DNA of 48,499 nucleotides from Virgibacillus sp. 7505. GTDB lineage: Bacteria; Bacillota; Bacilli; Bacillales; Amphibacillaceae. Of the stretch, positions 1,923-23,291 are shown piece by piece. Every line of letters starts with the position of its first letter. Position 1 is the stretch's first letter. Where the stretch lies: positions 1-48,499 of the forward strand of contig NZ_NPBF01000016.1 in the NCBI RefSeq assembly GCF_002272135.1, in the 5' to 3' direction. The position numbers and the translations under genes are program-made. The notes beneath the pieces are model-generated. The model was given only the letters and a program-made list of their open reading frames with translations. It had not been told where the DNA came from and ran no database searches.

Positions 1923-1939
1923 ACTCATTATATTAATAA

Positions 1940-2192
1940 TTGAGCGTTGAACGGATTACAGTAATGTGTGTTCTCCCTGTTAAAGAGAGCTGACGGTTGG
2001 TGCAAGTCAGTACAAAGAACAGCATGAATTACAGTCCAGGAGCATCTTCTTCGAACCGGTTGGTGAGGGGAAGACGGTGAAGAGCCGTTATGATGAAATG
2101 AGAGATTGACATAATAGCCGTGTCAATAATTAGGGTGGTACCGCGTAAAATCACGTCCCTGCTGATACATTTCAGCAGGGATTTTTTGTTTT
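1940..2192 (+). promoter_or_regulatory. T-box leader 1 with terminator (likely tRNA-Leu, UUA specifier)
   Basis: Canonical T-box sequence AGGGTGGTACCGCG at 2132-2145, followed by a terminator (CCCTGCTGA/TCAGCAGGG, 2157-2180, then T-rich). Stem I base GGATT (1953-1957) pairs with AGTCC. The specifier loop shows AGTA on the 5' side and GAA (2026-2028) followed by TTA (2029-2031) on the 3' side, read as a leucine codon. AUU (Ile) or UAC (Tyr) readings, shifted by one base, cannot be fully excluded. The UGGU of the T-box pairs with ACCA, fitting a tRNA with discriminator A such as tRNA-Leu. This copy is the most diverged of the three. Confidence 0.9.
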
Positions 2193-2209
2193 GAAAGCTA
2201 AATATAATG

Positions 2210-2460
2210 ATAAGTGATGAATGGATTGAAGTAGTGTATGTTCTCCCTGATACAGAGAGCTGACGGATGGTGCGAGTCAGTGCAAAGAACAGCATGAATT
2301 ACGATCCAGGAGCTTTCTTCTTCGAACCGGCTGGTGAGGGGAAGACGGTTTATAGCCGTTATGAGGAATGAGATATTGACATAGCTTATATGTCGATAAT
2401 TAGGGTGGTACCGCGTAAAATCACGTCCCTGCTGATACACTTCAGCAGGGATTTTTTGTT
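2210..2460 (+). promoter_or_regulatory. T-box leader 2 with terminator (likely tRNA-Leu, UUA specifier)
   Basis: T-box AGGGTGGTACCGCG at 2402-2415 and terminator hairpin at 2427-2450 followed by T-rich sequence. Stem I base GGATTG (2223-2228) pairs with CGATCC (2302-2307). GAA (2296-2298) and TTA (2299-2301) occupy the specifier loop. The unit starts about 270 bases after the first. Confidence 0.92.
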
Positions 2461-2475
2461 TTAAATAGCTAAATA

Positions 2476-2725
2476 ACAAGCATTGAATGGATTGAAGTAG
2501 TGTATGTTCTCCCTGATACAGAGAGCTGACGGATGGTGCGAGTCAGAACAAAGAACAGCATGAATTACGATCCAGGAGCTTTCTTCTTCGAACCGGCTGG
2601 TGAGGGGAAGACGGTTTATAGCCGTTATCTTAAATGAGAGATTGATATAGTTTATATGTCGATAATTAGGGTGGTACCGCGTAAATCACGTCCCTGCTGA
2701 TACATTTCAGCAGGGATTTTTTGCT
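2476..2725 (+). promoter_or_regulatory. T-box leader 3 with terminator (likely tRNA-Leu, UUA specifier)
   Basis: T-box AGGGTGGTACCGCG at 2668-2681, terminator at 2692-2715 with a T-rich tail. Stem I base GGATTG at 2489-2494 and specifier TTA at 2565-2567 after GAA. Almost identical to leader 2, with small changes in the stem II/III region and one A fewer after the T-box. Readthrough here leads straight into the small ORF and the permease. Confidence 0.92.
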
Positions 2726-2754
2726 TGGTTGGACAGTTAAGGAGGTGGTTAACC

Positions 2755-2859
2755 ATGGATGATGACTATTATTATACAAAATTAATCAGAACAGGATTTG
2801 ATATAGAAAGAGGAGAAGAAGATGAGTCAGAATGGTTTGCGGAAAGAGCTTTTACCTAG
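2755..2859 (+). CDS. Small ORF (34 residues) overlapping the permease start
   Basis: ATG at 2755 follows a strong GGAGGTGG site with six bases spacing. The ORF encodes a very acidic peptide beginning MDDDYYYTKL and ends at TAG 2857-2859, 38 bases inside the permease gene in another frame. Its 3' part contains the permease's own ribosome binding site (GAGGAG). I do not recognise the peptide and see no signal peptide or membrane segment. The layout suggests translational coupling: ribosomes on the small ORF would open or occupy the permease start. It could also be a chance ORF behind a fortuitous SD. Confidence 0.5.
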   Translation: MDDDYYYTKLIRTGFDIERGEEDESEWFAERAFT

Positions 2860-4186
2860 GCACGTACAGTTTTTAGCATTAGCGGGTATGATCGGTACCG
2901 GTATTTTCAAAGGAAGTGGTGAGACATTAGGGATTGCAGGGCCTGGTGTAGTCGTTTCTTACTTATTGGGCGGGGCCCTGCTGCTGATAGTAATGGTTGC
3001 TTTAGCTGAAATGGCCGTCGTATATCCGAATCATAATGTCCAGCACTTAGTTCATAAGGCATTTGGCTTTCATATATCCTTCATTGTTGGATGGCTGTAC
3101 TGGATTAACTGGACACTTGTTACCGTTGTAGAAATACTAGCTGCAGGCTCATTCTTGCAGTTTTGGTTTTCCAATACGCCGCTTTGGCTGTTAAGTGCAA
3201 TTTGTGCAGCACTTATCATTGGAATAAACAGCCTACAAGTTAAATTCTACGGAGAAATGGAATTTTGGTTTGCTAGTATTAAGATTATTGCTCTTGTACT
3301 ATTTATCCTATTAGGCGGTGCGGTGCTGCTAGGTTTGACGGATTTTGCCCCAGATACACCAACACAGCATCTATTCGGCCATGGCGGCTTCTTCCCGAAT
3401 GGTATGCAAGGAGTATTTGCAGCATGCTTGATAGTCATGTTTTCCTTCGGGGGATCTGAGTTAATCGGGGTAGCGATTTCTGAAACAAAAGATGTGAAGA
3501 AGGTTTTGCCTAAAGTAATCAAAGGCGTCGTTTGGCGAGTATTGCTGTTTTACATTCTCCCAATCACAATCATTGCGGGACTGATTCCTTGGAACCAGGT
3601 CGCTGGAACAGAAAGTCCATTCATTCAAGTAATGGATGCTATCGGCATACCAGGCGTTGCGCACGTAATGAATTTCATACTTTTGACCGCAGTTCTATCT
3701 GCTGCTAACTCTGGTATGTTTGCCACTTCCAGAACGATGTTTTCACTGGCTGAAAAAGGTGAAGCACCAAAACTATTAACGAAGACTTCTAAATCAGGTG
3801 CACCGATCAACGCTATATCTTTAAATGGTGTGCTATTGTTGGTAGGTGCAGGACTTGCTTATTTTGCGCCTGAAAGTATCATTGGAACGATGATGACAAT
3901 TCCTGGCTTCACTATGCTGCTGCTATGGCTTAGTATTTGTGCAGCGCAGCTGAAATTGCGTCCGGAATATGCAGATATGCCGCATTTCAGAATGAAGCTG
4001 TTTCCTGCGACGACAATTGTCGGGATTGCAGGGCTGGGAATCATTCTGGTAGGTTCGACATTCAGTAAAGGGATTTCAGTAGGAACGGTTGTATGTTTTA
4101 CAGCTTTAGCAGTCCTGACCGTATTGGCAGTAATTATGGGTCGGAAAAGAAGAGAAAAAGAAACCAAATTAAAAAATGCTCAATGA
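2822..4186 (+). CDS. APC-family amino-acid permease, YvbW-like (probable leucine/branched-chain)
   Basis: The 454-residue protein has about twelve hydrophobic segments and the APC signature at the N-terminus (LAGMIGTGIFKGSG, residues 21-34). The start and the whole N-terminal half resemble Bacillus subtilis YvbW, a permease under a leucine T-box; this is from memory. It would import an amino acid by proton symport. Three T-box leaders upstream make expression depend on uncharged tRNA, probably tRNA-Leu, which supports leucine or another branched-chain substrate. ATG at 2822 follows GAGGAG. The C-terminus is a short charged tail (RKRREKETKLK). Confidence 0.85.
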   Translation: MSQNGLRKELLPRHVQFLALAGMIGTGIFKGSGETLGIAGPGVVVSYLLGGALLLIVMVALAEMAVVYPNHNVQHLVHKAFGFHISFIVGWLYWINWTLVTVVEILAAGSFLQFWFSNTPLWLLSAICAALIIGINSLQVKFYGEMEFWFASIKIIALVLFILLGGAVLLGLTDFAPDTPTQHLFGHGGFFPNGMQGVFAACLIVMFSFGGSELIGVAISETKDVKKVLPKVIKGVVWRVLLFYILPITIIAGLIPWNQVAGTESPFIQVMDAIGIPGVAHVMNFILLTAVLSAANSGMFATSRTMFSLAEKGEAPKLLTKTSKSGAPINAISLNGVLLLVGAGLAYFAPESIIGTMMTIPGFTMLLLWLSICAAQLKLRPEYADMPHFRMKLFPATTIVGIAGLGIILVGSTFSKGISVGTVVCFTALAVLTVLAVIMGRKRREKETKLKNAQ

Positions 4187-13244: not shown

Positions 13245-13273
13245 GTAGTGAATTGAATATTGCTAAATGTTTT

Positions 13274-13390
13274 CTAGGGTTCCGCAGCTTGGCTGGTCTG
13301 GTCCGAGAGAAAACTCACAGTATTCACTGTGTCACGGAAGGATAAAAGCCTGGGAGAAACTGTTTAACAGTTACTCCCAGGCTTTTTATC
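13274..13390 (+). promoter_or_regulatory. Guanidine-I (ykkC) riboswitch with terminator
   Basis: The conserved ykkC elements appear in order: CTAGGGTTCCG, CTGGTCCGAGAGA, AAACTCAC, CACGGAAGGATAAAAGCC and TGGGAGA. The 3' part can form the terminator AAAAGCCTGGGAG/CTCCCAGGCTTTTT (13344-13386), the usual expression platform. Guanidinium binding would disrupt the terminator and allow transcription of the two SMR genes downstream. Confidence 0.95.
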
Positions 13391-13426
13391 TTTTCATGGA
13401 CAAACTAAAATTCGGAGGTGGAAGAA

Positions 13427-13768
13427 TTGAACAAACATTGGTTCATGGTAATCATTGCGGCAGTTTTTGAAGTCTTATGGGTTATTGGATTAAAGCATGC
13501 AAGTGGTGTCTTGGAATGGATTGGAACTATAATAGCGATCGCGATTAGCTTTTATCTGATGATTAGGGCTGGGCGCTATATACCTGTCGGGACGGTTTAT
13601 GCTGTATTTGTAGGACTGGGAACAGCAGGTACCTTTTTCTCGGAAATTCTCTTCTTTGAGCAGCCATTCGTTCTTAATAAGTTCTTGCTTGTAGCTTTAT
13701 TACTTGCAGGGGTCATTGGATTGAAACTAGTAACGAAGGATCATGAAGCAGAGGGGGCAGAACAGTAA
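13427..13768 (+). CDS. ykkC: SMR-family guanidinium exporter subunit (YkkC-like)
   Basis: The protein has about 113 residues, four transmembrane segments and the essential glutamate at position 15 ([15 protein letters not shown]), with the Gdx-type [15 protein letters not shown] in the third helix region. It has a short hydrophilic tail. With the next gene it should form a heterodimeric proton-coupled guanidinium exporter, matching the guanidine riboswitch. I place the start at TTG 13427, eight bases after GGAGG; the GTG at 13418 overlaps that SD and is unlikely. The stop overlaps the next ATG by one base. Confidence 0.9.
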
Positions 13769-14082
13769 TGGCATGGACATTTTTAATTTTAGCAGGACTG
13801 TTTGAAATGTTTGGTGTAGCAATGATAAATAAACTGCATAAGGATAAAAGCTGGAAACCAGCAGTCTTCCTGATTCTTGGATTCGGCGCTAGCTTTCTCT
13901 TTCTCTCTATAGCGATGGAAAGCCTGCCTATGGGCACAGCCTATGCCGTGTGGACAGGAATTGGTGCTTCTGGTGGAGCGATTGTGGGGATGTTATTCTT
14001 TAATGAATCAAAGGATTGGAAAAGGATTTTGTTTATTGCTTTGGTACTGGGTGCAGCAGTAGGATTAAAACTGGTTTCTTAA
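13768..14082 (+). CDS. ykkD: SMR-family guanidinium exporter subunit (YkkD-like)
   Basis: The 104-residue protein has four transmembrane segments, glutamate E13 (GLFEMFGVAMIN) and the SugE/Gdx motif GTAYAVWTGIGASGGAIVGM. It is translationally coupled to the upstream SMR gene (TAATG overlap). The two paralogous subunits probably pair in the membrane. No clear terminator follows; a weak GC-poor hairpin near 14194-14230 is possible. Confidence 0.9.
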   Translation: MAWTFLILAGLFEMFGVAMINKLHKDKSWKPAVFLILGFGASFLFLSIAMESLPMGTAYAVWTGIGASGGAIVGMLFFNESKDWKRILFIALVLGAAVGLKLVS

Positions 14083-14209: not shown

Positions 14210-14237
14210 TTGGGAATATTTTTATAAGTGTTATCAT
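14210..14237 (+). promoter_or_regulatory. Sigma-A promoter of the RpiR-family gene
   Basis: TTGGGA (14210-14215), 16-base spacer, TATCAT (14232-14237). It fits the gene starting at 14311. Confidence 0.5.
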
Positions 14238-14310
14238 ACAGGTAGGATTCATAATTGACGGTTGACGTAGGAAGAACTCATGTCATATCTCATCAGGAGC
14301 AGGTGATACA

Positions 14311-15162
14311 TTGGGAGACCTAATTCATAGATTGCAAACCAAAGCATTCGAACTAACAGAAGCCCAGCGGAGAATTGCTGATTATGTTGTACAGCATCCC
14401 ATGGAAGTTGCATTTCTTACTGTTGACAAATTAGCTTCAACTGTAGGAACAAGTACAGCTACTATAATGAGATTTTCGGCAGCAGTTGGCTATTCCGGCT
14501 TTTCAGAACTACAGAGGGAACTTCAAGCAAACATGAAGCATAAAGCTGCTCCTCAAACTAGGTTAGAGGCCAATTTGAAGGATGCTGATAAAAGCGATCT
14601 TTTGCAGCAGCATGCTGAATTGCAATTAGAAAATATCCAATATTCCTTAGACAATATAGCTGAGAGTACTTTACAGGAAATAATAGAAAAGATAGCGGCA
14701 TCAGATAATATTATATGTACAAGTGTGCGGAGCGGAAGACCAGTAGGAGAATACATATCATTTGGGATAAACAGGATTTTAGGGAATTGCAGGTATATTG
14801 ATGCGGATAAAAGTGAATGGGTTGATGAATCCGTCAGTCTTACTTCGTCGGATTTAATAATAGCCGTGAGCTATCCGCGGTATGCTGAACGAATCGCAAA
14901 TATGTTAGAAGTAGCTAAGTCCTGTGGTACTGAAATCATTTTGATTACCGATGGTTATTCTTCTCCAATGACAAAGTATGCTGATTTGATTTTACCTTGT
15001 TCTTCAGCGAGTGCAGCTTCTCATAATTCCATAGTGTCAGCCATTTTTATCGTTGACTACATTCTAAGTGCTTTAGCTATCAATTATCCTGAAAGAACCA
15101 AGCCTAGACTTGATAAAATCAATGAAATCCTTACAAAAATGAGTTACCACACAAAACGTTAA
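14311..15162 (+). CDS. RpiR/MurR-family transcriptional regulator (HTH + SIS)
   Basis: The 283-residue protein has an N-terminal HTH_6 domain (residues 1-77; LTEAQRRIADYVVQHP, then KLASTVGTSTATIMRFSAAVGYSGFSELQREL). A C-terminal SIS sugar-phosphate-binding domain follows (about 110-260; CTSVRSGRPVGEYISFG, IIAVSYPRYAERIANMLEVA). It would sense a phosphorylated or acidic metabolite and control the adjacent operon at 15310, whose leader has two matching palindromes. The start is TTG 14311 behind an AGGAGCAGGTG site. A terminator overlaps the stop codon, separating it from the operon it faces. Confidence 0.9.
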   Translation: MGDLIHRLQTKAFELTEAQRRIADYVVQHPMEVAFLTVDKLASTVGTSTATIMRFSAAVGYSGFSELQRELQANMKHKAAPQTRLEANLKDADKSDLLQQHAELQLENIQYSLDNIAESTLQEIIEKIAASDNIICTSVRSGRPVGEYISFGINRILGNCRYIDADKSEWVDESVSLTSSDLIIAVSYPRYAERIANMLEVAKSCGTEIILITDGYSSPMTKYADLILPCSSASAASHNSIVSAIFIVDYILSALAINYPERTKPRLDKINEILTKMSYHTKR

Positions 15163-15186
15163 TTGTGCGGTAACTCATTTTTATTT
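15135..15186 (+). terminator. Intrinsic terminator after the RpiR-family gene
   Basis: AAAATGAGTTACC-CACAA pairs with TTGTG-GGTAACTCATTTTT with one mismatch; a T-rich tail follows. It includes the last codons of the gene. Confidence 0.88.
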
Positions 15187-15200
15187 TGAATATTTTTCCG

Positions 15201-15214
15201 TGAAAGCGCTTTAC
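15201..15214 (+). promoter_or_regulatory. cre-like site (CcpA) overlapping the -35 box
   Basis: TGAAAGCGCTTTAC matches the cre consensus TGWAARCGYTWNCW at 12 of 14 positions and is nearly palindromic. It overlaps the -35 of the catabolic operon promoter, a position suited to repression by CcpA with HPr-Ser-P. Confidence 0.65.
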
Positions 15215-15238
15215 CAAAATGAGATAGAATGGTATGAT
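15210..15238 (+). promoter_or_regulatory. Sigma-A promoter of the rraA-dehydrogenase-permease operon
   Basis: TTTACC (15210-15215), 17-base spacer, TATGAT (15233-15238). Confidence 0.65.
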
Positions 15239-15250
15239 CGCGTTATCAAA

Positions 15251-15264
15251 GTAATATATATTAC
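15251..15264. promoter_or_regulatory. Palindromic operator-like site 1
   Basis: GTAATATATATTAC is a perfect 14-base palindrome just after the expected transcription start. A second copy lies 30 bases on, three helical turns. Likely target of the RpiR-family regulator encoded upstream. Confidence 0.65.
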
Positions 15265-15280
15265 TCTAATTTTAATTTAA

Positions 15281-15294
15281 GTAATATTTGTTAC
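15281..15294. promoter_or_regulatory. Palindromic operator-like site 2
   Basis: GTAATATTTGTTAC shares 11 of 14 bases with site 1 (GTAATAT identical; second half TTGTTAC against ATATTAC). It sits next to the SD of the first gene. Confidence 0.6.
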
Positions 15295-15309
15295 GGGAGG
15301 AGCTTAGAT

Positions 15310-15981
15310 ATGGAAAGTGTATCGTTATTACCAAACGAACTAATCGAGCGAGCAAAAAAGTTGAATACAACACTTCTTGCCGATGTGATGGGCTGTACAG
15401 GTTCGATGGATTACCGCATCAAACCAGTAAGCACTGGTATGGAATTTGTGGGAACAGCTATGACAGTGAGCTTAAGACCCGGAGATAATTTATTTCTTCA
15501 TGAAGCTATCTATTCGGCAAGGAAGGGACTTGTACTGGTAGTCGATGGAAAAGGACACACAAATAATGCTTACTTAGGAGAACTTATGGCTAGTTCAGCC
15601 CAAGCCATCGGAGTAGAAGGTATAGTCATTGATGGACTTGTAAGAGATAAAAAAGCACTGGAAGAGCTGAAATTTCCTATATACAGTAAGGGGTTTAATC
15701 CGAATGGTCCTTTCAAAGATGGTCCAGGAGAGATAAATGAAGTCATCTCTTGCGGGGGTGTCCGTGTTGCGCCAGGTGATTTAGTTGTAGCGGATGATGA
15801 TGGTGTAGTTATCGTACCAGTCGATAAAATTGACGAAGTACTTATGAAGGCGTCAGAAAAATTGTCTTATGAAAAAAAACGCCTGGAAGCAATTGCCCAG
15901 TATTCTCATCAGGAACATCCTGATCCAAAGTCTTTAGCACCGAAATGGCTGGAAAGTAAAATGAAACAATACCAAGAATAG
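15310..15981 (+). CDS. RraA-family protein (aldolase/decarboxylase-like)
   Basis: The 223-residue protein has the RraA/HMG-aldolase fold motifs: LLADVMGCTGSMD near the N-terminus and GELMASSAQAIGVEGIVIDGLVRD in the middle. The family includes 4-hydroxy-4-methyl-2-oxoglutarate aldolases and oxaloacetate decarboxylases with a divalent metal, as well as RNase E inhibitors. The D of the DGLVRD segment is the usual metal/substrate residue region. Here it opens an operon with a dehydrogenase and a carboxylate-type permease, so a catabolic lyase is far more likely than RNase control. SD GGAGGAGC precedes ATG. Confidence 0.85.
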   Translation: MESVSLLPNELIERAKKLNTTLLADVMGCTGSMDYRIKPVSTGMEFVGTAMTVSLRPGDNLFLHEAIYSARKGLVLVVDGKGHTNNAYLGELMASSAQAIGVEGIVIDGLVRDKKALEELKFPIYSKGFNPNGPFKDGPGEINEVISCGGVRVAPGDLVVADDDGVVIVPVDKIDEVLMKASEKLSYEKKRLEAIAQYSHQEHPDPKSLAPKWLESKMKQYQE

Positions 15982-15993
15982 GGGTTGAGAGAT

Positions 15994-16887
15994 ATGAAGT
16001 TAGGTTTTGTCGGGTTTGGAGAAGCTGCTTATGAAATGGCATCCGGACTGCATAGTGAAGGCATTGATAGATTCTATGCATTTGATCCACTTTTAGATGA
16101 TGTGAATCTTTCCGAACGTATAAGAGACAGAGCTTCCAAAGCAAATGTAGAGCTGCTGGCAAGTGCTAATGAAGTATTGGAGATATGTACAATTGTTATT
16201 GCTGCAGTACCTGCCAACAAGACGTTAGAAGCAGCACAATCACTAACCGATAGCTTTAAGGATGATTTGATTTATGTCGATGTATCTGCTGCCACACCAG
16301 AAATCAAGAAACAGGTAGCCAGTGTAGTAGAGGATGGAGGCTCTTTGTTTGTAGATGCAGCGATGCTAGGGCCACTACCTGTTTATAAACATAAGGTACC
16401 AATCTCGGCAAGTGGAAACGGGACAGATTCCTTTATAAAAAAATTAGCGGGATACGGCATGCAAATCACTAAAATAAGTGATAATCCTGGGGATGCTTCA
16501 GCTCTTAAACTTATAAGAAGCATCTATATGAAAGGCGTCGTTGGTTTGATGGTTGAATTTTTAGAAGCAGCTAAGACATATGGAGTTGAAGAACCGGCCA
16601 TTCGTTCTATTAACGAAACAATGAATGCCAAGACTTTTGTTGAAACAATGAACCGGCTTGTAACAGGAAGTGCACTTCACGCGCAAAGACGGGCAGTGGA
16701 ATTGAGTGGTTCAATCGAGATGCTGCAGGAATCGAATTTAGATGCGAGTATGTCGATTGCTGCACAGAAGAAATTGGAACGTCTAGCTGATTTAAATATT
16801 TCCGAAAAATATAAAGGAAAAAAGCCAGACACTTGGGAAGAAGTCCTTGCGTTGCTAATGAACGAAAACGAAGTATATCACACTTAG
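15994..16887 (+). CDS. NAD(P)-dependent hydroxyacid dehydrogenase-like protein (NAD-binding 2 + DUF1932)
   Basis: The 297-residue protein opens with a Rossmann motif (LGFVGFGEAAYEMA, residues 3-16), followed by a 6-phosphogluconate/beta-hydroxyacid dehydrogenase-like N-terminal domain. The C-terminal part (about 185-260, DNPGDASALKLIRSIYMKG onwards) matches the DUF1932 helical domain. It would oxidise a hydroxy acid whose product could be split by the RraA-like protein. ATG 15994 follows AGGGG by nine bases; an upstream TTG (15985) is less likely. It is 12 bases after the previous gene, hence the same operon. The substrate is unknown. Confidence 0.85.
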   Translation: MKLGFVGFGEAAYEMASGLHSEGIDRFYAFDPLLDDVNLSERIRDRASKANVELLASANEVLEICTIVIAAVPANKTLEAAQSLTDSFKDDLIYVDVSAATPEIKKQVASVVEDGGSLFVDAAMLGPLPVYKHKVPISASGNGTDSFIKKLAGYGMQITKISDNPGDASALKLIRSIYMKGVVGLMVEFLEAAKTYGVEEPAIRSINETMNAKTFVETMNRLVTGSALHAQRRAVELSGSIEMLQESNLDASMSIAAQKKLERLADLNISEKYKGKKPDTWEEVLALLMNENEVYHT

Positions 16888-16889
16888 AA

Positions 16890-16903
16890 TGTAAGCGTTT
16901 TAA
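16890..16903 (+). promoter_or_regulatory. Intra-operon cre-like site
   Basis: TGTAAGCGTTTTAA matches the cre consensus at 13 of 14 positions. It lies between the dehydrogenase stop and the permease start, where CcpA could act as a transcription roadblock. Confidence 0.6.
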
Positions 16904-16932
16904 AATACAGAGACCAAGGGGAGGGAGACCAA

Positions 16933-18276
16933 ATGACGGGTTTTATCGCACTGGTTGTGTTTATAGCAGTTATTATCATCTGGAATGTAATAGTAAAGCG
17001 CAACATGGGTGAAGCGATGTTTCTAGGATTCGTTGCCACTGTTTTGTTTGGAGGAACTGAGGCTCCAAGATTATTTTGGGAAGGATTAGTATTTGCCTCT
17101 ACTTATGAAGTATTATACGCTGCTGTTGCCTTTGTTTTCATGGCTTACTTAGTTGATCAGCTCAACTTGATTCAAGCTCTTTTACGTATATTCAACTCAC
17201 TCATAGGCAAGCTGCCAGGTGGTGCAGCCTACATGAGTACGGTAGGTTCTGCCATTCTTGGCGCTCTTTCAGGATCCAATTCAGCCAATACAGCAACAAC
17301 TGGATCAATTACTGCACAATGGATGATTAGATCCGGATGGAGCCGTGAGACGACAGCGACTATCCTGGCTGGTAATGGCGGTTTAGGCGCTGCATTGCCA
17401 CCGAATTCTTCCATGTTCATCATGCTTGGATTTGCACCGATAGGAGCAGTGGTTACAGAGGGTGACTTGTATATTGCTCTTTTGATCGGAGGTGCTTACC
17501 AAGTTATTTACCGAATGATTTTAGTATTCTTGCTCGTTAAGAAAAATGGTATCAAGGCTCTTCCATCAGAGGATATCGTTGGTTTCAGGGAAGCTCTTAA
17601 ACAAGGATGGAAATCCATTTTTATATTCCTCGGTGCGTTGATTCCTATACTTGTCACTGTCGGTCCGCTTGCGGAAGCGCTGGAAAACAACCCTGATATT
17701 GGACCAGAGGCAATGGATCAGATTTCATTGATTACTTGGATACCTATACTTATCATGATTATAAGTTTGATCATCGGCTGGAACAAAACACCTGGTTCAC
17801 TTGTGAATTGGTCACGGATGTTATCATCTGCTATACCGCAATTTACGACGATTGGCGCGCTCATGTTATTCGCAGTAGCAGCCAGTGAAGTCCTCTCACA
17901 ATTAGGACTTGCGAATGATCTTAGTCAAATTACTTCTTCTCTTGATATACCAAAATGGCTGATGGTCCTTATGGTAGGTATATTGGTTACTTTAGTAGCG
18001 GGACCGCTATCCTCTACAGCTACGCTTACAGCAGTTGGTTTAGTATCATTTTCTGCTTTAACTTCTGCCGGAGTAGACCCATTGGTGGCAGTAGTAGCTA
18101 TACTGGCCTTCTCTTCAACTGAAGGGGCCTCACCTCCAGCTTCAGGATCGATATTCATTGCCTCCGGACTAGCAGGAGCAAGACCGGAAAAAACTTTCAT
18201 ACCATTAATCGTATATTACATGCTGCCAATAGTAGGAATCGGGTGGCTGATCGGCATGGAGATATTACCAGTATAA
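16933..18276 (+). CDS. TRAP-type large permease (DctM family)
   Basis: The 447-residue membrane protein has about eleven to twelve hydrophobic segments and the DctM-type re-entrant motif region: ILGALSGSNSANTATTGSI, then GWSRETTATILAGNGGLGAALPPNSSMFIMLG. A mirror motif follows late in the protein (GPLSSTATLTAVGL). It would import an organic acid by sodium symport. No periplasmic-type binding protein (DctP) is encoded nearby, and the following gene makes only a very short membrane protein in place of DctQ. SD GGGAGG precedes ATG. Confidence 0.85.
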   Translation: MTGFIALVVFIAVIIIWNVIVKRNMGEAMFLGFVATVLFGGTEAPRLFWEGLVFASTYEVLYAAVAFVFMAYLVDQLNLIQALLRIFNSLIGKLPGGAAYMSTVGSAILGALSGSNSANTATTGSITAQWMIRSGWSRETTATILAGNGGLGAALPPNSSMFIMLGFAPIGAVVTEGDLYIALLIGGAYQVIYRMILVFLLVKKNGIKALPSEDIVGFREALKQGWKSIFIFLGALIPILVTVGPLAEALENNPDIGPEAMDQISLITWIPILIMIISLIIGWNKTPGSLVNWSRMLSSAIPQFTTIGALMLFAVAASEVLSQLGLANDLSQITSSLDIPKWLMVLMVGILVTLVAGPLSSTATLTAVGLVSFSALTSAGVDPLVAVVAILAFSSTEGASPPASGSIFIASGLAGARPEKTFIPLIVYYMLPIVGIGWLIGMEILPV

Positions 18277-18297
18277 AAGGGATAGGAGTTGGTATAG

Positions 18298-18549
18298 ATG
18301 CGTAAGCTTGCAGAACTGTTGTTTAAACTATTTCTTATAGCATTCCTGGCATGCGGTACACTGCTGGTGTTTGGGCAGATTCTGGGCTTGATCCTGCAAA
18401 ATGGAGACCTGATCATCCAGAGCGCAGAATGGTTTAAGAATCCAACCATTATTTTGAGTGCCATATTCAGCCTTGTCGGCTTCACTTTGAACTACTTGCC
18501 GAAAGAGAAAAATAGTGATGACCAAGATAAAAGTATGTCTGGCAGTTGA
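18298..18549 (+). CDS. Small two-helix membrane protein, possible reduced DctQ-like partner
   Basis: The 83-residue protein has two hydrophobic segments (about residues 7-33 and 48-67) and a charged C-terminus. It starts 21 bases after the permease behind AGGAG. DctQ subunits usually have four helices and about 160 residues, so this is either half of one or an unrelated accessory protein. The position as last gene of the operon suggests it works with the permease. I do not recognise a family. Confidence 0.65.
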   Translation: MRKLAELLFKLFLIAFLACGTLLVFGQILGLILQNGDLIIQSAEWFKNPTIILSAIFSLVGFTLNYLPKEKNSDDQDKSMSGS

Positions 18550-18562
18550 TCCATGATACAGC

Positions 18563-18602
18563 AAAAAAGACCTGAGCTATAATGACTCAGGTCTTATTAT
18601 TA
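18563..18602. terminator. Bidirectional intrinsic terminator
   Basis: AAGACCTGAG and CTCAGGTCTT flank a seven-to-eight-base loop, with A-run upstream and T-rich sequence downstream. It ends both the rightward RraA/TRAP operon and the leftward clpP gene. Confidence 0.88.
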
Positions 18603-21463: not shown

Positions 21464-22240
21464 ATGAAACGTTTATGGAGCAATCTTTTTGCAATCGCAA
21501 TAATAGTGATCGGTCTGGTGCTGATTTTGTCTAACATTGGTGCAATTGACTGGAGCTACAGCCAAAGCTGGCATTATCTATACCCCGTATTCATCCTGTT
21601 ACTAGGGCTGAAATTATTGATTGATTTCTTAAGGGGCGAAGTGGGATTCTGGTTTGGTATATTCTGCATGCTGTTTGGCGGACTGCTGATCCTTGATCGG
21701 TTTGAAGTCCTTACATTTGAATTTAATGATATTTTAAAGCTTTGGCCGCTTCTTATCATTTACTTTGGATTCAGTCTGCTTCGCTCAGGCAAGAAGGGGA
21801 AGAGGCGTCAAGCTGGAGTGAATATGGAATGGGAAACTGGAAGTCAAAAGAAGAAGGGCAAAAGAGCTTATAAAAACTATCATAATTATGCAGTGGGAGA
21901 GCACAGGTTTGATAGTGAGGGCTGGACAGTTGAACCCACCCAGGTGAAGAATGCGGTAGGCGAGTATTATGTGGACTTTACAAAAGCCTTTATACCGAAC
22001 GACGAAATACCATTTCATCTTAAAGGCTGGGCAGGGGAAGTACGAATCATTCTCCCCGATAATGTGGAATTCCGCTTGGAAGCTTTGATTAAGGCTGGAG
22101 AGATAAATGTTTTTGGAGAACTTTCAGAAGGCATAAATCGACGAACGTATTACGAAACCCCCGGATATGCAGATGCAACCCGCAAGCTGGATATTTTTAT
22201 TGATTATAAGGCTGGACAAATAAGAGTGGACCGGATATGA
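21464..22240 (+). CDS. liaF: LiaF-like membrane protein, inhibitor of LiaRS signalling
   Basis: The 258-residue protein has four N-terminal hydrophobic segments (residues 7-105). A positively charged linker (KKGKR) and a C-terminal cytoplasmic DUF2154-type domain (about 150-258) follow, with GEYYVDFTKAFIP and LKGWAGEVRIILPDNVEFRLEALIKAGEINVFG. LiaF keeps the LiaS kinase off until cell-wall damage. The order liaF-liaS-liaR is conserved here. ATG follows GCAGGTGGG. Confidence 0.9.
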   Translation: MKRLWSNLFAIAIIVIGLVLILSNIGAIDWSYSQSWHYLYPVFILLLGLKLLIDFLRGEVGFWFGIFCMLFGGLLILDRFEVLTFEFNDILKLWPLLIIYFGFSLLRSGKKGKRRQAGVNMEWETGSQKKKGKRAYKNYHNYAVGEHRFDSEGWTVEPTQVKNAVGEYYVDFTKAFIPNDEIPFHLKGWAGEVRIILPDNVEFRLEALIKAGEINVFGELSEGINRRTYYETPGYADATRKLDIFIDYKAGQIRVDRI

Positions 22241-22250
22241 GGTGGCAGTG

Positions 22251-23291
22251 ATGCTGAAAAAACTTAATAGTATTCGATACTCGTATATCAAAACAAACTT
22301 ACGCACAATGTTCCTGAATGCAATTCTGCTTCTTGGCGTCCTGCTGTCCATCCACGTTTTGCTGGAGCCGATATGGCTTAGTGTACAAGCAATCTTTACA
22401 TTTTTGCTCCTATATATCATGCTTCATTCCCTTACATCCATATTTGTTGGATTTCAAGACAGCAAAGAAATAAAGGATCGAATGGATCATATATCTTTGT
22501 TTATTACAATGGTTGCCAATGGCAATTATCAGGCGAAGATTGTAGACAACAGCCATGATGAAATTGCTCGGATAGGTAAGGATTTAAATGAGTTGACAGA
22601 TAAGATGCATTCGCAGGTCAAATCACTTCAACGTTTGGCTGATGAAAAGGCAGAGCTTGCCGAGGGTGCACATCGAGCAGCTGCAATGGAAGAGCGGCAA
22701 CGACTTGCAAGGGATTTACATGATGCGGTCAGCCAGCAATTATTTGCGCTTACGATGATGTCAAAAGCGGGCATGAAGCTATTTGATAAAAATTCGGAAG
22801 CTGCAAGGGACAAATTCGCAGAAGTTTCACAAATTGCGCAGCAGGCTCAGACAGAAATGCGTGCATTGCTTTTGCATTTGCGACCTGTTCATCTTTCTGG
22901 TGACTCTTTAAGCAGCGGGGTGAGGAAGCTGATCGATGAGTTGAAACAACGTACCCAACTTGTTTTTCATATACATATAGAAGATACGATGCAGTTGTCG
23001 AAATCGGTGGAAGAGCATCTGTTTCGTATAATTCAGGAAGCTTTGTCGAATACACTGCGTCATGCTGAAGCGAGTGAAGTGACGGTCGAGTTGCTGACAA
23101 GAGGAATGGATGTGGCAGTTACTATCCAGGATAATGGCAAAGGCTTCGATACAGCAGCTATGCAACAGCGTAAAACATCGCTTGGGTTAAGGTCCATGCA
23201 AGAACGCTGCGAAGAATTAGGAGGGACATTTATGCTGCGGGCGAGCGTAGGTGTTGGTACACAAATAGGTCTCCGAATACCAACTAAGTGA
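22251..23291 (+). CDS. liaS: LiaS-like sensor histidine kinase
   Basis: The 346-residue protein has two N-terminal transmembrane segments with a short outside loop (about residues 20-67), a HAMP linker (MVANGNYQAKI), and a HisKA_3 domain with phospho-accepting H157 (ERQRLARDLHDAVSQQL). The HATPase_c domain shows the N box (IIQEALSNTLRHAEA) and G boxes (DNGKGFD, LGLRSMQER). It acts on the LiaR encoded next and is held off by LiaF. ATG 22251 follows GAGGTG; upstream in-frame GTG codons overlap that SD. Confidence 0.92.
   Translation: MLKKLNSIRYSYIKTNLRTMFLNAILLLGVLLSIHVLLEPIWLSVQAIFTFLLLYIMLHSLTSIFVGFQDSKEIKDRMDHISLFITMVANGNYQAKIVDNSHDEIARIGKDLNELTDKMHSQVKSLQRLADEKAELAEGAHRAAAMEERQRLARDLHDAVSQQLFALTMMSKAGMKLFDKNSEAARDKFAEVSQIAQQAQTEMRALLLHLRPVHLSGDSLSSGVRKLIDELKQRTQLVFHIHIEDTMQLSKSVEEHLFRIIQEALSNTLRHAEASEVTVELLTRGMDVAVTIQDNGKGFDTAAMQQRKTSLGLRSMQERCEELGGTFMLRASVGVGTQIGLRIPTK

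Follow-up and report, generated by a model that had tools for sequence, protein, structure and literature searches.

A conserved set of genes for an RpiR regulator, an RraA-like lyase, a DUF1932 dehydrogenase and a DctM-type permease in Virgibacillus sp. 7505, a candidate module for hydroxy-acid catabolism

The window analysed here, a whole stretch of 48,499 nucleotides from Virgibacillus sp. 7505, carries an rpiR gene, followed by a region with a promoter-like site, a match to the catabolite-responsive element (cre) and palindromes, and then by genes for an RraA-like lyase, a DUF1932 NAD(P)-dependent dehydrogenase (DH), a DctM-type permease and an 83-amino-acid hydrophobic membrane protein. 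This gene set is conserved in other genomes, its DH and RraA occur as a single polypeptide in actinobacteria, paired palindromes that are candidate operators stand ahead of its first gene, and neither DctP nor DctQ was found near the permease. We consider it reasonably probable that the set forms a catabolite-controlled, substrate-induced hydroxy-acid module, the substrate of which would most likely be a C4-C6 hydroxy-di/tricarboxylate. An earlier, sequence-only reading had named these five genes and their families, which Pfam confirmed for all but the small protein, and had described a four-gene operon, which was borne out by the hairpins found. One terminator-like hairpin (15135..15182, +; fold -24 kcal/mol, z -7.7), missed by a simple terminator scan, ends rpiR (14311..15162, +), and another (18567..18595; z -5.1) lies between the operon and a convergent clpP-like gene, so that rpiR is probably a transcription unit of its own and the operon proper consists of the genes for RraA (15310..15981, +), DH (15994..16887, +), the permease (16933..18276, +) and the small protein (18298..18549, +). 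The gaps between these four genes are 12, 45 and 21 bases, with the DH start taken at ATG 15994, which was preferred over TTG 15985.

The genome of the window is a Terribacillus one, since the nearest named matches of the permease were found in T. saccharophilus and syntenic loci are present within this genus, where DH occurred at 80% identity or more in 7 of 10 sampled genomes, with all five genes together in each of these seven. Linkage was assessed in 299 genomes of the order, with part of the first-look candidates scored per genome. The permease (E <= 1e-40) was present in 13 of these genomes, and in 12 of them it lies no more than 5 kb from both DH and RraA. In the remaining one (G274), the permease and the small protein stand in a cluster arranged as in Peribacillus asahii L064. 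DH (E <= 1e-25) was found at 21 places in 19 genomes, every one of them within 5 kb of RraA, and one of these DH genes (G360) has an internal stop, while RraA itself occurred in 75 of the 299 genomes, mostly without such a DH. The sequence-only reading had proposed a search for the same gene set elsewhere, and the co-occurrence is clear; a chance neighbourhood is rejected by this recurrence and linkage across genomes.

Beyond this sample, the permease was found at 60 named loci, the phyla of which we assigned from organism names. The permeases of Bacillus altitudinis and B. safensis are 82% identical to that of the window. Here tblastn and profiles were used, ORF (open reading frame) picking being unreliable in GC-rich loci; tblastn found RraA in 58 loci and DH in 49, and profiles added six more DH. 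The five loci in which DH was not found are L064, L072 (at a contig start), L089, L097 and L104. In L089 and L097 a D-2-hydroxyacid dehydrogenase (Pfam) adjoins RraA at that place, and L104 has an ORF matching that dehydrogenase in length and position. Gene order divides the clusters into three clades, with RpiR in front, with RpiR behind, or with the permease first and then RraA and DH. A search of plasmids with the permease gave 103 records, all below 60% identity and only two covering most of the protein. One of the plasmid loci (L117, CP125156.1) is a 5.37-Mb Klebsiella record listed as a plasmid that looks like a chromosome. The RpiR-RraA-DH core with its operators is also carried by two Priestia plasmids (L113, L114) together with other transporters, suggesting that the core is mobile.

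The strongest single sign of the order in which the enzymes act comes from actinobacteria. DH and RraA form one polypeptide of about 450 amino acids in 23 of the 27 frames tested, all actinobacterial and upstream of the permease, and in 22 of these 23 the fused frame stops between 6 and 266 bases short of the match to the permease; Pfam was run on two of them. L079 is an example of the fused type. For this test each profile had been cleared of its actinobacterial rows, one out of 23 and four out of 30. L089 and the three Nocardiopsis loci L105-L107 are unfused, with RraA separate. According to these fusions, DH and RraA very likely act consecutively. The earlier suggestion of a module for uptake, oxidation and cleavage under a dedicated regulator is supported.

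The DH carries both domains of its family above the cut-offs (DUF1932, 44.9 versus 25 bits; NAD_binding_2, 27.5 versus 21 bits), and its AlphaFold2 model has a pLDDT of 94.4. All 30 sequences compared share Lys172, Arg175, Lys180, Arg232 and Arg233, and we take Lys172 to stand at the place of the catalytic lysine of the beta-hydroxyacid dehydrogenase superfamily. In a fold search, the three closest structures (3qsg, 4ezb and 1i36) have no assigned function, and imine reductases and beta-hydroxyacid dehydrogenases came next, none of these matches pointing to a substrate. The superfamily of DH oxidises beta-hydroxy acids, and the chemistry of RraA calls for a 2-oxo acid that bears a carboxylate or carbinol on C4; judging from this family chemistry, a substituted malate would fit both enzymes.

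The RraA-like protein passes its Pfam cut-off clearly (162.4 versus 24.5 bits), and its closest solved protein is the 4-hydroxy-4-methyl-2-oxoglutarate/4-carboxy-4-hydroxy-2-oxoadipate (HMG/CHA) aldolase 3noj (E 1e-35). In that aldolase, Arg123 is essential and Asp124 binds the metal, according to the available text of PMC5065237, which also describes class II pyruvate aldolases as sharing a pyruvate enolate and as decarboxylating oxaloacetate. The equivalent pair, R112-D113, is invariant in the 30 aligned sequences, and in the match to 3noj the equivalents of Asn71 and Lys147 are kept as well. At ligand position 102, most of the 30 sequences have Glu, five have Asp, one has Gly and one has Ile. 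The last is the RraA of Paenibacillus sp. FSL H7-0326 (L061:4393-5061), in which another Asp stands three places past the conserved Arg-Asp pair, a pattern that looks like a shifted ligand.

This kinship with an aldolase leads to a variant of the scheme, in which a 2,4-dihydroxy acid would be imported, DH would yield a 4-hydroxy-2-oxo acid and RraA would split it into pyruvate and a second carbonyl compound. Besides the nearest solved protein, the neighbours of other DUF1932 dehydrogenases speak for it, since the one of Pantoea adjoins galB, a CHA aldolase and a 4-oxalomesaconate tautomerase, that of Klebsiella adjoins the last two, and that of Burkholderia lies near gallate genes. Those dehydrogenases, however, are only about 27% identical to the DH of the window, none of the five genes here is a ring-cleavage gene, and RraA missed the NCBIfam cut-offs both of the LigK equivalog (150.8 versus 304.5 bits) and of PRK09262 (161.8 versus 179). 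We therefore regard aldol cleavage of this kind as unlikely in the window, and the favoured reading of the RraA step is a decarboxylation.

The permease is DctM by Pfam (173 versus 23.8 bits, E 9e-51), while its score of 69.3 bits lies below the TIGR00786 cut-off of 268.45. Its model (pLDDT 83.3) best matches the M subunits of TRAP (tripartite ATP-independent periplasmic) transporters (7qha_B, E 4.8e-12), followed by other members of the ion-transporter fold. In 63 permease loci, covering up to 6 kb on each side, profiles built on 13 DctP and 12 DctQ sequences found neither protein, while both controls were recovered; TAXI proteins were not searched for in these loci. The absence of DctQ stands out because a review calls this subunit essential for TRAP function (in the available text of PMC5812351). 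Use of the sole DctP of the genome was considered and rejected, that gene lying on another contig (C35) beside another DctM, with borrowing in trans being possible.

In place of these subunits, the permease has a constant partner in the small protein, which is probably formed of two membrane helices. It follows the permease 3' in 62 of the 63 loci, and in the one miss (L094) the DNA of the locus stops 58 bases past the permease. The profile behind this count was trained on the window and the 60 named loci, so the independent matches among the 63 are L152, L153 and L154 only. Among 23 other RraA-cluster loci, the small protein occurs only in the four that have this permease (L152-L154 and L164), and the Rhizobium plasmid cluster L116, in which the permease gene is annotated in two pieces, lacks it. 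The 83-amino-acid protein matched nothing in Pfam or NCBIfam at E <= 0.001, and a PDB sequence search gave a single match with E 0.71. The idea that it is a shortened DctQ was rejected, as the DctQ profile gave a probability of 0.5% compared with 0.6% for the reversed control.

The regulator has HTH_6 (59.4 versus 28.3 bits) and SIS (44.3 versus 25 bits) domains above their cut-offs, as the MurR/RpiR family demands. Of the 60 named loci of the permease, 28 have an orthologue with at least 35% identity, and all 28 are among the 32 Bacillota loci; those Bacillota loci without it are two of Enterococcus, L064, and L062, in which the contig ends after the small protein. The sequence-only reading had taken an RpiR regulator to imply a sugar phosphate or a sugar acid as ligand. 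This was not supported: judging from the alignment to 4ivn and from 38 orthologues, the regulator lacks the Ser/Thr phosphate motif of the SIS domain. Where the solved RpiR protein 4ivn has AVSSSGSTKEV, the serines of which presumably bind phosphate, the regulator of the window has AVSYPRYAERI, and its pocket is characterized by CTSVRSG plus an RY motif at the place of these serines, with Arg190 and Tyr191 kept in at least 95% of the 38 orthologues. The solved protein 3sho also has RY there, so that the variant is not unique to this RpiR group. With the phosphate motif missing, a carboxylate seems likelier as ligand than a sugar phosphate.

The same evidence bears on a sugar-acid route, in which the ligand of RpiR would be a sugar phosphate or sugar acid and the substrate of the enzymes would derive from an aldonate or uronate, much as in the 4-deoxy-L-erythro-5-hexoseulose uronate (DEHU) pathway of alginate. 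Published RpiR relatives do sense sugar phosphates (available text of PMC12713135), and FlDet of the DEHU pathway is an RraA-like KDGR dehydratase/decarboxylase (available text of PMC8563752). Given that the SIS phosphate motif is missing and that the module has no sugar kinase, dehydratase or isomerase, this route appears quite improbable.

Upstream of RraA, the sequence-only reading had placed a promoter overlapping a cre-like site and two palindromes 30 bases apart. The overlap is there, since the cre-like site TGAAAGCGCTTTAC (15201..15214, +) covers part of the first hexamer of a promoter-like TTTACC-17-TATGAT (15210..15238, +). In the window, the promoter scan itself stands at chance level (11 found, 11.5 expected), and the cre pattern shows no excess (50 matches with up to two mismatches, 50.8 expected); thus a cre match significant on its own was rejected, and support for the site comes from conservation across clusters only. 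The loose cre pattern is found upstream of 30 of 30 clusters, compared with 971 of 2966 random 240-bp pieces of the window. It lies 5' of the operators in the clade of the window and in the permease-first clade, and 3' of them in the remaining clade. A second cre-like match with one mismatch lies between DH and the permease (16890..16903).

The palindromes stood up better, exceeding chance. GTAATATATATTAC (15251..15264) and GTAATATTTGTTAC (15281..15294), the starts of which are 30 bases apart, belong to near-palindromes of the form GTAATANNTATTAC found 29-31 bases apart in every one of 30 upstream regions of Bacillota clusters, namely that of the window and those of 29 loci, L062 among them (L072 has no upstream DNA in its locus). 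These are related clusters, so that the 30 are not independent events. The same rule gave no pair in 3946 random window pieces, a background of mostly coding DNA, and because it takes the second site 14-60 bases from the best one, the spacing is partly conditioned, in the background likewise. A strict pair pattern had one match in the 3.66-Mb assembly, and its reversed control had none. The pair precedes the first gene whichever it is, RraA in 23 clusters and the permease in seven, and a third palindrome stands 27-30 bases further on, upstream of RraA, in L063, L065, L068, L069, L070 and L096. The pair is also found ahead of RraA in three further clusters with a DctM-type permease (L152-L154) and in all seven RpiR clusters without this permease (L155-L159, L113 and L114), and it is absent from all five clusters without an observed RpiR orthologue (L046, L047 and L162-L164). 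Since the presence of the operators tracks RpiR clusters, RpiR is probably the cognate regulator of the operon. The same operator was sought at the promoter of rpiR itself and rejected there, no site of at least 11 being found in 12 upstream regions (the best 9 of 12).

The only clues to the substrate come from related clusters with other neighbours. In Nocardiopsis L107, one strand carries a CoA-transferase III, a RipC/Ccl-like lyase, the permease, the small protein, RraA, a 255-amino-acid ORF (the L105 counterpart of which is IclR by Pfam) and DH; the best match of the lyase is RipC_Ccl of itaconate degradation, with 159 bits below a cut-off of 375. A Bacillaceae cluster (L047) has a CoA-transferase III, an HMGL-like lyase, RraA, DH, TctC, TctA and Ldh_2, and in L163 RraA occurs with CitMHS, HMGL and CoA-transferase III. 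Such pairs of CoA-transferase and lyase hint at a C4-C6 hydroxy-di/tricarboxylate.

Taken together, we propose that RpiR bound to the two operators just 3' of the promoter would block transcription until a carboxylate ligand binds, repression being suggested by the position of the operators between promoter and start codon in the window, and that CcpA may act at the cre site. The permease and its small partner, with no binding protein, would import an organic hydroxy acid, for instance a substituted malate, and DH would use NAD(P)+ to oxidise its hydroxyl, giving a 2-oxo acid, the direction and order being those predicted. RraA would then break the product via a metal-bound enolate, by decarboxylation if it is an oxaloacetate analogue, which is favoured, or by aldol cleavage if it is a 4-hydroxy-2-oxo acid.

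Several observations weigh against this model. As to regulation, L152 carries the operators and yet has no RpiR orthologue within its 14 kb, the second RraA copy of L158 has no operators, and the two palindromes can pair with each other as RNA (z -4.1). The pairing in the transcript would suit an RNA element of the leader in place of RpiR operators, which we hold to be extremely unlikely, as each site is palindromic in itself, the spacing is fixed near 30 bp, a third site stands one step on in six clusters, and presence follows RpiR (7/7 versus 0/5). As to the enzymes, the equivalents of Arg40 and Thr145 are not kept in RraA, and because the closest DH structures lack an assigned function, hydroxyl oxidation is drawn from the family and the direction could be reductive. 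L064 and L164 retain the permease and the small protein, but the places of RraA and DH are taken by CoA-transferase III, enoyl-CoA hydratase and acyl-CoA dehydrogenase (identified by Pfam in L064). Elsewhere, RraA and DH have PIG-L and DUF6282 as neighbours (by Pfam in L049 and L050), an amidohydrolase-like protein is found in a Priestia plasmid cluster, and gallate-type genes are found in proteobacterial clusters, so that a single substrate for all of these contexts is unlikely.

This variety, together with the RpiR-RraA-DH core that occurs without this permease in L155-L159, L113 and L114, suits a reading with several substrates, in which RraA and DH would be a generic oxidation and lyase cassette, the transporter and side enzymes of each clade would set the compound, and that of the window might fall outside the dicarboxylates. 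Within Bacillota, however, the core keeps its permease, small protein and operators despite reordering, and we consider this reading somewhat unlikely; the hydroxy-di/tricarboxylate module remains the preferred one for the window. As an example of a differing layout, in L158 (3079-15384) the RpiR gene lies between two RraA copies; after one of these come a PIG-L gene and a TRAP-like fused permease, and after the other comes DH.

Some units elsewhere in the window were also recognised. Adjoining the module, at 13263-14082 (+), a Guanidine-I riboswitch (84.7 bits) stands directly ahead of an SMR gene pair, which is probably a guanidinium exporter. Three tandem T-box leaders (139, 125 and 128 bits) precede a gene for an APC-type amino-acid permease at 1938-4186 (+), and LiaF-like and LiaS-like genes at 21464-23291 (+) form a cell-envelope stress unit.

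No published pathway combining RraA, a DUF1932 DH and a DctM permease was found among the open-access literature matches listed, subscription literature being outside this scope, so that a published assignment may exist. Each protein falls into a known superfamily, but no pathway among these matches shows the gene assembly, a permease that lacks DctP and DctQ, or the fusion of DH with RraA. More tentatively, as an idea that is plausible but falls short of probable, we suggest an undescribed multi-phylum route in which a lone TRAP-M and a new small subunit would form an importer, without binding protein or DctQ, and would feed a DUF1932 DH and RraA, bifunctional in Actinomycetota, that turn a branched hydroxy-dicarboxylate into a central 2-oxo acid. 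If true, this would give a function to the widespread DUF1932 domain of dehydrogenases, to one branch of the RraA family, in which misnaming is common, and to a new family of small membrane proteins, and it would provide a natural test case for how a TRAP-M subunit works when no binding protein is present. The operator sites and the fusions sharpen the prediction enough for direct testing.

Among known systems, HMG/CHA aldolase (LigK, 3noj) resembles the RraA of the window at E 1e-35, with the Arg-Asp pair, Asn71 and Lys147 kept, whereas the latter lies below the NCBIfam cut-offs, has Glu for Asp102 and belongs to a module without aromatic-cleavage genes. The DEHU oxidative pathway of Flavobacterium UMI-01 is similar in that an RraA-like lyase, FlDet, acts on an oxidation product; its substrate is an alginate-derived uronate, and no DUF1932 enzyme is seen in the available text of PMC8563752. 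According to the same text, FlDet is 20% identical to HMG/CHA aldolase, whereas the RraA of the window is clearly of that branch. As for itaconate and C5-dicarboxylate degradation, a pathway named in the available text of PMC12290011, the route through CoA transferase, hydratase and citramalyl-CoA lyase is echoed by Nocardiopsis L107, where a CoA-transferase III and a RipC/Ccl-like lyase stand with permease, RraA and DH, but the module of the window has none of those three enzymes. Finally, the TRAP transporters (DctPQM; SiaQM and IseQM structures) share with the permease of the window its DctM assignment by Pfam and its TRAP-M fold, while the permease loci differ from them in that DctP and DctQ were not found in the 63 examined and a small protein of another family is present instead.

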